From assembly GCA_949290355.1 (NCBI GenBank), contig CASERN010000011.1, forward strand, positions 919,865-983,864: a DNA stretch of 64,000 nt, given 5' to 3'. The notes under the pieces were generated by a model. That model did not search any database. It was given only the letters and a program-made list of their open reading frames with translations, and was not told the DNA's origin. The stretch is from an uncultured bacterium. GTDB lineage: Bacteria > Cyanobacteriota > Vampirovibrionia > Gastranaerophilales > Gastranaerophilaceae. A program made the translations under genes and the position numbers. Position 1 is the first letter of the stretch. Every line of letters begins with the position of its first letter. Shown here in pieces: positions 10,991 to 45,338 of the stretch.

Positions 10991-11608
10991 ATGGAAAATT
11001 ATACAAAAGAAGATTTTTTAAATAAAAAAGTAAATTTACATATACACACGACATTTTCAGACGGTAAAGGCGATGTCCTAAAGATTTTGTCCCAAGCAAA
11101 AGCTAAAGGCTACAAAAAAATAGCTTTTTGTGATCATAATACCCTTGAAGCATATCATAAAACAGAAATTTTAAAAGAAGATATTGTATTATCGGGAGTA
11201 GAATTTGATGTATGGTGCGGATACGTTTTTATGCATTTGCTTGCATACAATATTGATGTCAACAACAAGGAACTGTTAGCTTTCTGCGCAAAAAACAAAA
11301 AAGAGACAGAACTTGATATTGTAAGAATTTTTTCAACCCGAGATATAAAAAAACTAATACAAGCAATACATAATGCAGGCGGGATTGCCGTACTAGCACA
11401 CCCTGCATGTTGTTGGGCGATTAGTCTCGACAGATTTGTAAAAAAGCTCATAAGTTACGGACTTGACGGGCTGGAAGTTTATTATCCTTATAAAAGACAC
11501 AGAGGGATAATAAAATTCCATAAATCGTCAAGCGTTGAAAAAATAGCAAATAAATATAATCTTATAAAAACAGGAGGTACAGACCTGCATGGAGAAGAAC
11601 TAAATTAA
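10991..11608 (+). CDS. PHP-domain phosphoesterase (205 aa)
   Basis: Compact polymerase-and-histidinol-phosphatase-type metal hydrolase. Metal ligands are recognisable in the usual order: HIHTTFSDG near the N-terminus (HxH), AFCDHNT, GVEFD, AHPACCW and the C-terminal GTDLHG. This is the trimmed version of the family, as in RNase AM/YciV (5'-3' exonuclease/3',5'-nucleotide bisphosphate phosphatase), and that is the best guess. I chose the second ATG (10991), where the domain begins. No Shine-Dalgarno; TATAAT at 10970-10975 implies a leader of only about nine bases. Its stop overlaps the convergent pilin gene by 4 bases. A larger relative is at 32.0-33.2 kb. Confidence 0.8.
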   Translation: MENYTKEDFLNKKVNLHIHTTFSDGKGDVLKILSQAKAKGYKKIAFCDHNTLEAYHKTEILKEDIVLSGVEFDVWCGYVFMHLLAYNIDVNNKELLAFCAKNKKETELDIVRIFSTRDIKKLIQAIHNAGGIAVLAHPACCWAISLDRFVKKLISYGLDGLEVYYPYKRHRGIIKFHKSSSVEKIANKYNLIKTGGTDLHGEELN

Positions 11609-12303
11609 TAATTCATTTGCCATCCGTCCATTATGATTTTTTCTGCACAAGACAATCTTGTATTGTCATTACAGTATTGTTGAACAACACGTTTTCTATC
11701 ATCCTCGGAAACACCTCCTACTCCAAATTCACCTAACCAATCGTAATGAGCTCTGCTATAAAAAGGAGTAATCATTTTACCTGTATATGCAAATACGAAA
11801 ATATCCCTGCCCACTTCATTTGGTCCTCTTAAACCATTTGTATCGACTAATACCGCTCCACCAAAAACAAACGCACTTATAAAAGCAATAATGCTTCCAT
11901 CCGCAGTAGTGCCTGACAAAGTAACTGGGAAACCTAAAAAATCATAAAAAGTATAACCTGTATTACCACCGCCAGTATTTACTTTATAATTTAAAAGATT
12001 TGAATTATTGACATTAGATAATTTAAAAGTAGAAACAAATTTATTTTTAGCTTCCTCATTACCTAAATCAAGAAATAAACCATTTCCAAGGAAGCTGGTA
12101 CAAGTCATATCAGTACAGCCTTCATTGGCATATATCTGTTTGTAGCCCTCATTCAAAACGGAATAAGTCTTTTTCAACTTATTTATCCATACTTGCTTTT
12201 GATAATTAGCCATTAATGTAGGTATTGTTAATGCCGCTACAACTCCGATAATTCCTAGAGTAATCAATACCTCTGCCAATGTGAAACCGAATATTTTTTT
12301 CAT
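11605..12303 (-). CDS. Type IV pilin-like protein with class III signal
   Basis: Begins MKKIFG followed by FTLAEVLITLGIIGVVAALT, a canonical prepilin-peptidase site (cleavage after Gly, Glu at +5) and a long hydrophobic helix. The remaining 190 residues are a polar pseudopilin-type domain with paired cysteines. The protein would be processed by a prepilin peptidase and assembled in a type IV pilus or type II secretion pseudopilus; no assembly ATPase is in the window. The ATG at 12303 has its own GGAGAG site, but an upstream frame starting at 12438 runs into it without a stop (see leader entry). Converges on the PHP gene with a 4-base overlap. Confidence 0.85.
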   Translation of the reverse strand: MKKIFGFTLAEVLITLGIIGVVAALTIPTLMANYQKQVWINKLKKTYSVLNEGYKQIYANEGCTDMTCTSFLGNGLFLDLGNEEAKNKFVSTFKLSNVNNSNLLNYKVNTGGGNTGYTFYDFLGFPVTLSGTTADGSIIAFISAFVFGGAVLVDTNGLRGPNEVGRDIFVFAYTGKMITPFYSRAHYDWLGEFGVGGVSEDDRKRVVQQYCNDNTRLSCAEKIIMDGWQMNY

Positions 12304-12438
12304 AAACTCTCCGCTATAATTGTAATGACATACATTACTATTATAACAGATTTTTTTACTTTTGAAACCCCTGAAAACCTTTGTGGAAAGCCTTAAATCC
12401 CCCCCCCCGAAATTCCGTAATCCGTCAAATCTTTCCAT
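12304..12438 (-). other. In-frame 45-codon leader upstream of the pilin, with G10 tract
   Basis: From an ATG at 12438, with AAAGGAG about nine bases upstream, the frame stays open for 45 codons and enters the pilin ATG at 12303 in frame. Codons 11-13 are GGG GGG GGG inside a run of ten G (plus-strand C, 12399-12408). One G more or fewer puts stops shortly after the tract, so tract length would decide whether the leader is fused to the pilin. A leader this open is unusual in such AT-rich DNA. It contains the putative internal pilin promoter TATAAT (12345-12340). Whether the leader is translated, regulatory, or part of the protein is not known. Confidence 0.55.
12399..12408. repeat. Homopolymer of ten C (G on the coding strand)
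   Basis: A run of exactly ten C followed by GAAAT on the plus strand. An equal C10-GAAAT occurs at 44616. These are by far the longest G/C homopolymers in the window, in otherwise AT-rich sequence, and both sit just upstream of a pilin gene. Prone to slippage during replication and to sequencing error. Confidence 0.95.
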
Positions 12439-12472
12439 AAATCTAGCTCCTTTCTTTATTGTGTATATAGTT

Positions 12473-12500
12473 ATTTTAACATATTTTACAAAGATTTCAA
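12473..12500 (-). promoter_or_regulatory. Promoter for the pilin leader
   Basis: Minus-strand TTGAAA (12500-12495), 16-base spacer, TAAAAT (12478-12473), between the prfB stop and the leader ATG at 12438. The predicted start gives a leader of about 28 bases that includes the AAAGGAG site. Confidence 0.5.
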
Positions 12501-35787: not shown

Positions 35788-36964
35788 TCGATTTCAAATC
35801 TGACTGATAATTATAATATTCAATCGTTTCCTGTAAATTTTTATGGATTTTATCTATTAAAGCTTTATCCTGACGATATTCTTTAGTTAATTGTTTTTTG
35901 ACACTTTCACTATTAACTGCAGCTTTTTTAGCATCTTTATATAGTGATAATACACGATCTTTCAAACCTGAAAAATAATTCTCAAACATTTTTTTATCAA
36001 CATCAGAAAATACAATAGGGATTTCTTCTGAAATATCATATAGATCCTTATTTTTAGCATTTGCATATAATTTTTGAGAAACTTTTCCTGTAAACATTTG
36101 ACTAATCAAATCTACGTAACGCTTTGCTTTTTGAGAATGTGATCCTAAAGTAGAATCTGTAAATTTCATGTTTAATTCATTAAATAAACGAACTATACCA
36201 TATACCCTGTTTGATTCATTAAATTTTGCTTCGGAATAATGAGGACCAAACAATATAATCAATTCATGATTTGTAGGATTTTTTCTCTTATCAAAATCCC
36301 TTACAAAACGCATTTGAATATCTTCATAACCTGATTTTTGAGGTTTACTTATTGAGTATCTTAACTTCTGTGGCAAATTTGTTACTTCATCAGATACATC
36401 TGCCAACCTTATATCCAAATCTGGAACAATCTTTTCCTTTGACAAATCCTTAAGTTCATCTTCAGATGGGACATACCCTCTTTTTATAAGGTCTTTTATG
36501 CTCATTTCTGTATCAGCTAAAACATAACCTCTTTTTTTCATCTCTGGTAAAATACCATCTGTTAGAACAGACAAATCATATGGGTTATTACAATATAAAG
36601 TAGCTCTTATTGTATCAGGTACCTTGAATTTCCCTGATCTTACGACTTTACTGGTATAAGATTTTGGTGATTTAACAGGATGCATTTCACAATATGCTCT
36701 ATCAAAACTTACACCTCTATCTTTTAATTTAAAAGCAACTGATTCTAAAATATCAAGATAAGTTGTAGCAATTCTTTCCAAACGAGGAGAAGCAGCAGCA
36801 ACTTGAGCTTCTAAATAATCTGCAACAGTTGCACGCCCTCCTGTAAAAGATACAGTATCTGATTTTAATTCTGATAATTTAGGGGATGTAACATTAGTAC
36901 TTTGCTTAACATCATAAGCCTTATTGCCAAATGACAATTTTGGGGTAAACAAATTAATATTCAT
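35777..36964 (-). CDS. Divergent RelA/SpoT-like domain protein (395 aa)
   Basis: N-terminal tail MNINLFTPKLSFGNKAYD with a SFTGG further in, then a central domain resembling the (p)ppGpp synthetase fold: a lysine region (SPKSYTSKVVRSGKFKV), PDTIRATLYCNNPYDLSVL matching the D-x-x-x-x-R-x strand, KPQKSGYEDIQMRFV matching the SGY..H segment and NHELIILFG near the ExQxR region. The helix after HYSEAKFNESNRVYGIVRLFNEL fits too. Several expected catalytic residues look replaced (ELI instead of EIQ), so enzymatic activity is doubtful. Start at ATG 36964 (AAGGTTAGAATC upstream) rather than further up. C-terminal 70 residues are coiled coil. Confidence 0.45.
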   Translation of the reverse strand: MNINLFTPKLSFGNKAYDVKQSTNVTSPKLSELKSDTVSFTGGRATVADYLEAQVAAASPRLERIATTYLDILESVAFKLKDRGVSFDRAYCEMHPVKSPKSYTSKVVRSGKFKVPDTIRATLYCNNPYDLSVLTDGILPEMKKRGYVLADTEMSIKDLIKRGYVPSEDELKDLSKEKIVPDLDIRLADVSDEVTNLPQKLRYSISKPQKSGYEDIQMRFVRDFDKRKNPTNHELIILFGPHYSEAKFNESNRVYGIVRLFNELNMKFTDSTLGSHSQKAKRYVDLISQMFTGKVSQKLYANAKNKDLYDISEEIPIVFSDVDKKMFENYFSGLKDRVLSLYKDAKKAAVNSESVKKQLTKEYRQDKALIDKIHKNLQETIEYYNYQSDLKSTKV

Positions 36965-44589: not shown

Positions 44590-44649
44590 ATGTTCAATAT
44601 AAAAGCTATGAGTTGCCCCCCCCCCGAAATACTAATAAAAATATTATAG
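44590..44649 (+). CDS. Leader peptide upstream of pilin, with C10 tract (19 aa)
   Basis: ATG at 44590 with AAAGGAGAG seven bases upstream, ending TAG at 44649. Predicted MFNIKAMSCPPPEILIKIL, the PPP coming from ten C. Adding one C would shift the reading into the frame that runs open through to the pilin ATG at 44697. With exactly ten C it is closed. Compare the in-frame leader at 12304-12438. Too short to be found by standard gene callers; that it is translated is an inference from its ribosome binding site. Confidence 0.5.
   Translation: MFNIKAMSCPPPEILIKIL
44616..44625. repeat. Homopolymer of ten C
   Basis: Exactly ten C followed by GAAAT, as at 12399-12408. Lies within a short frame between purA and a pilin gene. 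Confidence 0.95.
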
Positions 44650-44684
44650 TTAGTAAAAAGCTATGCAAATTAAGAAAAGTATAT

Positions 44685-44690
44685 TATAAT
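44685..44690 (+). promoter_or_regulatory. -10 element of the pilin gene, leaderless spacing
   Basis: TATAAT (44685-44690), then AGTGAT and the ATG at 44697. The sequence TATAATAGT(G/A)AT is shared with the promoter of the other leader-preceded pilin (minus strand at 12345-12340). The -35 is weak. Confidence 0.6.
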
Positions 44691-44696
44691 AGTGAT

Positions 44697-45338
44697 ATGA
44701 GTAATCACACTACAAAAAGAGCTTTTACATTAGCAGAAGTACTTATCACGTTAGGTGTAATTGGAGTTGTTGCGGCATTAACTATGCCTGTTGTTGTCGG
44801 TAAATTCCGTCGAAGTACAGCTGAAAATAAACTAAAAAAATTCTATTCGACTATGGATCAAGCCATAAACATGGCTGTTGTTGAATATGGAGAAATTGAA
44901 ATAGAAGACAAGGATAAAGTTGACTATAACAATTCTCAATACATAGAATCTTGGATGAAAAAGTACATAACCAAGTACCTTAAGACTTTAAAATCAGAAA
45001 AAGCAGATAATAGAAGTTATGAAGTTGCCTTCAGTGACGGAAGCGGTTTTGTTGCACAAATGTACCCTCCATATGATTCGACAAACACAAGTCATTTATA
45101 TATTTTCTATTGTTTAAACTTTGACAAATGCGATGAAAACAAAGTTGACGGTAGAAATACTTTTTGGTTTATGTACGACAACGATGCAAAAAAACTTATC
45201 CCAATGCTTTCACAGCTTTCAACAAGCACATTAAAACGAGATTTCTGTTATGAAGGAGGTCAAAGTCAAATGGGATGTGCGGCTCTCATAATGAAAAACA
45301 GTTGGAAAATCCCAGATGATTATCCTTGGATAAAATAA
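44697..45338 (+). CDS. Type IV pilin-like protein with class III signal (213 aa)
   Basis: MSNHTTKRA followed by FTLAEVLITLGVIGVVAALT: prepilin-type, except Ala instead of Gly before the cleavage site. The helix is followed by a polar pilin domain with cysteines (YCLNFDKCDE, CYEGGQSQMGC) and an end near GCAALIMKNSWKIPDDYPWIK similar in style to the other pilin (AEKIIMDGWQMNY). Expected in the inner membrane, then pilus or pseudopilus. No Shine-Dalgarno; a -10 ends six bases before the ATG. Its last bases overlap the region where the M16 frame begins. Confidence 0.85.
   Translation: MSNHTTKRAFTLAEVLITLGVIGVVAALTMPVVVGKFRRSTAENKLKKFYSTMDQAINMAVVEYGEIEIEDKDKVDYNNSQYIESWMKKYITKYLKTLKSEKADNRSYEVAFSDGSGFVAQMYPPYDSTNTSHLYIFYCLNFDKCDENKVDGRNTFWFMYDNDAKKLIPMLSQLSTSTLKRDFCYEGGQSQMGCAALIMKNSWKIPDDYPWIK

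Follow-up and report, generated by a model that had tools for sequence, protein, structure and literature searches.

A guanine-tract system in prepilin leaders of Candidatus Gastranaerophilales: candidate phase-variation switches oriented with replication

The DNA analyzed here, referred to as the window in the following, is a stretch of 64,000 nucleotides from a 1.85 Mb Candidatus Gastranaerophilales (Melainabacteria) genome, which is assembled in 14 contigs and has a guanine-plus-cytosine (GC) content of 31%. Its minus strand carries a gene for a type IV pilin-like protein (prepilin), which is preceded in frame by a leader containing a run of ten guanines (G10). This gene is one case of a genome-wide system of such tracts, which is genus-wide in occurrence. 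In the following, we describe the locus, the reading-frame rule that the tracts obey and their orientation relative to replication, and discuss why they probably serve as switches for slipped-strand phase variation.

The pilin locus and its upstream frame

The pilin gene lies directly 3' of a release-factor gene (prfB, with PCRF and RF-1 domains). From its downstream start, the ATG at 12303, it extends to a stop at 11605 (11605-12303, minus strand, as for all features of this locus) and begins with MKKIFG/FTLAEVLITLG, with cleavage expected after the G. The N-terminus thus carries the cleavage and methylation motif of prepilins (G or A, then FTLxE) and a hydrophobic helix, and both PF07963 and TIGR02532 match above their cut-offs. 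On these sequence features we classify the product as a type IV pilin-like protein; its processing and its assembly into a fibre are predicted only.

A second start lies upstream. Here, a promoter-like sequence (P1, TTGAAA-N16-TAAAAT, 12473-12500) and a Shine-Dalgarno-like AAAGGAG (12447-12453) precede an ATG at 12438, which opens a frame of 277 codons (11605-12438). This frame runs through the G10 tract (12399-12408), whose G strand is the leading strand, and through the remainder of the leader (12304-12398), passes the ATG at 12303 and ends with the pilin, placing the N_methyl domain at residues 46-70. The original prediction had described the promoter, the AAAGGAG, the upstream ATG, the tract and the open frame into the pilin, and all of them lie on the minus strand where it had placed them. 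The second promoter-like TATAAT that it had pointed out is likewise present (12345-12340). It is followed by a 17-base-pair palindrome, GTAAT-N7-ATTAC, which recurs 5' of pilins in the genus and forms with it an internal element (P2, 12322-12345); a GGAG (12309-12312) then stands ahead of the downstream ATG.

The state of this locus is atypical, as two bases (CG) that follow the run in most paralogues are absent from its leader, which brings G10 into frame. With nine Gs, the sequence reads GGG ATT TAA and stops at once, in agreement with the claim that a one-base change closes the frame within a few codons; with eleven, closure comes only after about 13 codons, so that this claim was too strict in the other direction. 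The putative switch would accordingly be open at present. Moreover, P2, the GGAG and the ATG at 12303 could express the pilin whatever the run length, so that expression may occur in either state; a switch would then affect how much product is made, or with which leader, and would not abolish it entirely.

A run and a prepilin after the release-factor gene are not confined to the window. In several relatives (loci L360, L363, L364, L373 and L374), a G10 or C10 run lies near the release-factor gene, in most cases with a prepilin as well, which suggests that this neighbourhood is a recurrent location holding different pilins. Where a tract and a pilin follow prfB in relatives, the leaders are unlike that of the window.

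Tracts in prepilin leaders and their reading frame

The window genome contains 54 genes with an N_methyl (prepilin) domain and 33 runs of ten or more G, where its composition leads one to expect about 0.03 G10 runs; a chance origin is therefore rejected. A full inventory of runs of at least eight G, which accounts for all 113 eight-mers, comprises 39 runs. Thirty-seven of them are located in prepilin leaders, starting 35-125 nucleotides 5' of an FTLAEV-type motif, and one sits at a contig edge within the same leader sequence as the prepilin tracts. The only run not tied to a pilin leader sequence is a TG9T on contig 14 (genome G000, 35830-35840). A repeat far beyond chance in genes for a surface structure, here prepilins, is a characteristic of contingency loci.

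The relatives in which we traced the tracts are metagenome assemblies of Candidatus Gastranaerophilales or Melainabacteria. Of 23 other genomes of the genus, 19 contain the pattern TTTC-G9; across 15 genomes of other genera it yields two single matches, as many as a reversed control. Counting run lengths, a check proposed with the original prediction, gave 148 runs of exactly nine, 1621 of exactly ten and 150 of exactly eleven G in 33 genomes of the genus, a comparison made between different loci.

The tracts come in two architectures, with either G or C on the coding strand, and both have an upstream start with a Shine-Dalgarno-like site about 15-33 nucleotides before the run. Such a site is found at 36 of the 37 tract loci of the window genome, a match of at least four nucleotides having been the selection criterion. 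The window itself holds an example of the second architecture on its plus strand: a C10 run (44616-44625; G10 on the minus strand, which is the leading strand) in the leader of a prepilin gene (44590-45338, coordinates converted from those of contig 11) that starts with an ATG at about 44590, reaches FTLAEV at 44724 and continues for 204 codons from there. At ten, this run is out of frame.

In both architectures, the upstream start is in frame with the pilin at lengths of 8 and 11 and out of frame at 9 and 10. The corresponding offset, (n-8) mod 3, is kept at 2 of 2 loci with n=8, 13 of 16 with n=9, 108 of 114 with n=10 and 12 of 17 with n=11; the exceptions include the window copy, with its missing CG. 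By this rule, changes of one repeat unit open or close the gene, which is the second characteristic of contingency loci. The frame entered at n=10 meets a stop 5-32 nucleotides past the run (median 7), whereas the median for the other closed frame is 33 nucleotides. Openness was read from the window genome, and length frequencies from this genome and the genus-wide counts of nine, ten and eleven. Among the 37 loci of the window genome, 28 of which have a run of ten, 26 are closed at ten, three are closed at nine, four are open at eleven and two are open at eight; the window copy is open at ten, and one locus is unscored. Most loci are thus closed, the commonest length being ten, at which nearly every locus is closed.

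No stop interrupts the pilin frame between tract and gene at any of the 37 loci. Two other genomes of the genus (G021 and G039) are useful as natural controls in this regard: each has about 100 or more prepilin genes and almost no G10 tracts, and their leaders are ordinary short ones that close a few codons upstream. The contrast between these closed leaders and the open ones of the tract loci supports the view that the latter are open because they are translated through the tract. G013, G023 and G045 are likewise poor in tracts. Furthermore, most loci with C on the coding strand and about half of those with G lack a further Shine-Dalgarno start in the interval from tract to pilin, and at about 40 loci fewer than 60 nucleotides separate the tract from the mature pilin. 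These short leaders have no room for an internal promoter and start, which makes the tract the only gate. Finally, similar paralogues differ in run length, for example 10 versus 11 or 8 versus 11.

Several further observations concern leaders and tracts elsewhere in the genus. Seven loci (L033, L034, L055, L093, L142, L144 and L152) have long pilin leaders with repeated inserts such as AAFTLAEGATHVA...NNIRRAAFTLAEGATH and CHCEGVERPSQSHNI, which gives the impression that the prepilin cleavage motif has been duplicated inside the leaders by a dispersed repeat. At L173 and L189, a G10 in a repeated context, TGTAACAATTTC-G10-CAACTTTAAGCTTTTA, stands ahead of a small non-pilin gene (MNITPVQNNSQSFGMAFKLKG). 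Lastly, one locus (L046, on contig 29 of G002) has three G10 or G11 runs within 2 kb, in apparent genes for an ATP-grasp protein, a sugar epimerase and a methyltransferase; in the epimerase gene (glycan-type), the run lies at the gene start and encodes a glycine-rich GGGGFIGS, in frame at G11.

Replication polarity and shared flanks

Along contig 11, the runs have their Gs on the plus strand up to 758 kb and on the minus strand from 823 kb, whichever way the genes point, and the GC skew at fourfold sites flips its sign in the same interval. On all contigs of the window genome with usable skew, the G strand is the leading strand in 36 of 36 runs (hand count), 11 of which lie in genes with C on the coding strand; skew was taken from sampled stretches, and is unclear on contigs 4 and 13 and weakly positive on contig 7. 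In two further genomes, G007 (73 runs) and G043 (44 runs), run orientation flips at only a few points, which match skew flips where sampled; each has one stretch, near 60 kb of contig 1, with a weak skew of the opposite sign. The G side of the runs is thus the leading strand in three genomes, irrespective of gene direction. Base-composition skew is rejected as the cause, since on the leading strand short runs of G and of C are about equally frequent. The link between run orientation and the replicating strand, in a genome with genes pointing both ways, lends itself to a natural experiment on the control of homopolymer stability by strand identity.

The immediate flanks are shared, too. In a list of G10 sites of the genus that was not selected for flanks, roughly 94% read C-G10-C (hand count). 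Read on the G strand, both architectures have TTTC before the run and CR after it, often with a later RGCT, although part of this flank evidence is biased by the search pattern. As the two architectures give complementary RNAs, a common flank points either to a constraint acting on the DNA itself or to an inversion in the shared ancestry of the two. In loci with G on the coding strand, the flank also provides the immediate stop. We considered a mobile element bearing the tract and rejected it: diverged loci share no sequence beyond about 30 base pairs of flank.

A second recurrent element, TATAAT with GTRAT-N7-ATYAC, is found upstream of many pilins, often with a start codon within it or just after it. 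It occurs with both architectures as well as ahead of one tract-free pilin; the strict palindrome precedes 10 of 55 pilins, where 0.07 are expected by shuffling.

Candidate explanations and known systems

In our judgement, the best explanation, and probably the correct one, is that the tracts act as switches for slipped-strand phase variation, each placed in the leader of a prepilin, a leader that would be cleaved off. Ribosomes would start at the ATG 5' of the run and read into the pilin at 8 or 11 Gs (or Cs), but meet a stop at 9 or 10; the leader would be cut off before FTLAEV, leaving the mature pilin unchanged. Run lengths would change by slippage during growth, with expression following the frame and with polarity resulting from slippage on one replicating strand. 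A cell would then hold a large, mostly silent pilin repertoire, from which single loci are opened by a change of +1 (or -2). Such phase variation explains the frame rule, the specificity for surface genes and the differences in length between paralogues. The original prediction had proposed this kind of switch for the window pilin, and it remains the best-supported reading; the copy on which it was based turns out to be the exception, open at ten, and a single gene of a genus-wide system.

Several points weigh against this explanation. The lengths were compared between paralogues, with one assembly per species, and the genus-wide set of loci was selected for an open frame from tract to pilin and, in part, for a flank pattern with exactly ten G. 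Many loci, the window locus included, have an internal promoter-like element and start. MutS is encoded in 32 of the 33 genomes, which also leaves loss of mismatch repair unsupported as a cause of the tracts. In addition, G9 is closed like G10 but ten times rarer, so that selection for the closed state alone fails to explain the peak. Phase variation by itself leaves both the preference for ten and the orientation along the replicating strand unexplained.

Polarity, exact length and shared flanks go beyond ordinary contingency loci. A more far-reaching proposal, which we put forward only tentatively, is that run and flanks constitute a replication-oriented element, at which the length is actively set to ten, in the course of fork passage, by a process that is specific to one strand and may involve a dedicated factor, such that up to about 150 pilin genes would be closed by default and opened singly.

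Among the alternatives to phase variation, the one that survives best, although we regard it as doubtful, is that the window pilin is transcribed from the internal promoter at 12345 and translated from the ATG at 12303, and that the longer frame with the tract is a minor or regulatory leader. The recurrence of TATAAT and palindrome ahead of pilins, even a tract-free one, agrees with it, as does the canonical short leader MKKIFG/F that the GGAG and ATG would yield. Internal initiation alone, however, does not require the frame between tract and pilin to be open, and it is open at every locus of the window genome, including those of paralogues with the same internal start. Programmed frameshifting appears less likely still. 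Here, the run would be kept at exactly ten so that slippage of some ribosomes (-1) or RNA polymerases (+1 base) yields a little full-length prepilin from each locus. The sharp peak at ten, the near-constant -1 frame at this length in G and C architectures alike, the stop codon right after the run and the presence of a mismatch repair gene would all fit, but frameshifting does not predict that the G strand tracks replication regardless of gene direction; moreover, lengths of 8, 9 and 11 occur without compensating indels, which would leave those loci fused or dead, and a run of ten keeps the window copy in frame. In the least probable alternative, run and flanks are primarily a replication-oriented site on the DNA, used in recombination or segregation or by a dedicated enzyme, and lie in pilin leaders incidentally: such a site would account for the G-strand flanks common to both gene orientations and for the leading-strand polarity in three genomes, but needs neither the confinement of the window genome's runs to translated prepilin leaders nor their obedience to a reading-frame rule.

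Slipped-strand phase variation, our preferred explanation, has well-known counterparts. In Neisseria, pilC and other pilus genes have homopolymer switches in which a tract early in the gene sets expression by frame. These concern one or a few loci, compared with tens to over a hundred prepilin genes here, and we know of no replication polarity reported for them. The poly-G/C contingency loci of Campylobacter resemble the present system in that AT-rich genomes contain dozens of intragenic G or C runs of 8-11 in surface genes, with frame-dependent on/off expression (PMC6321876, PMC8355987). There, short and long tracts are biased to slip in opposite directions, which keeps lengths near 9-10 (PMC8355987); a comparable equilibrium in which slippage depends on the strand would explain both ten and polarity in our case. 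The differences are equally clear: in the present lineage, most runs are of ten, G and C architectures are both frequent, the G strand tracks replication and MutS is present, whereas C. jejuni is without functional mismatch repair (PMC8355987), and in the window genome a single gene class, the prepilins, bears the runs. With C on the coding strand in just 5% of Campylobacter tracts (PMC6321876), the tract follows the gene there, while here it follows the fork. In Neisseria gonorrhoeae, the G4 element of pilE is likewise G-rich, orientation-dependent in function and located beside a pilin gene, but that element, a G-quadruplex sequence, initiates gene conversion by which silent copies donate sequence to a single expressed gene (PMC3547852). 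Here, instead of a multi-tract G-quadruplex beside a sole expressed pilin, we find a single C-bounded G10 inside the reading frame of many pilin genes, each complete with its own start.

Type IV pilus genes have been reported in a termite-gut member of the lineage (PMC5877343). The impression given with the original prediction, that such a switch is undescribed in this lineage, agrees with the open-access literature, in which we found nothing relevant on phase variation there; subscription papers and preprints were outside the scope of this search, and novelty is therefore provisional. With this proviso, the system would belong to a known kind, the contingency locus, and its new features would be replication polarity, exact length and shared flanks. 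If our explanation is correct, it would provide gut commensals with a means to vary their surface fibres, would be the first case of phase variation known to us from the non-photosynthetic relatives of cyanobacteria, and would rank among the largest pilin-switch sets of any bacterium.
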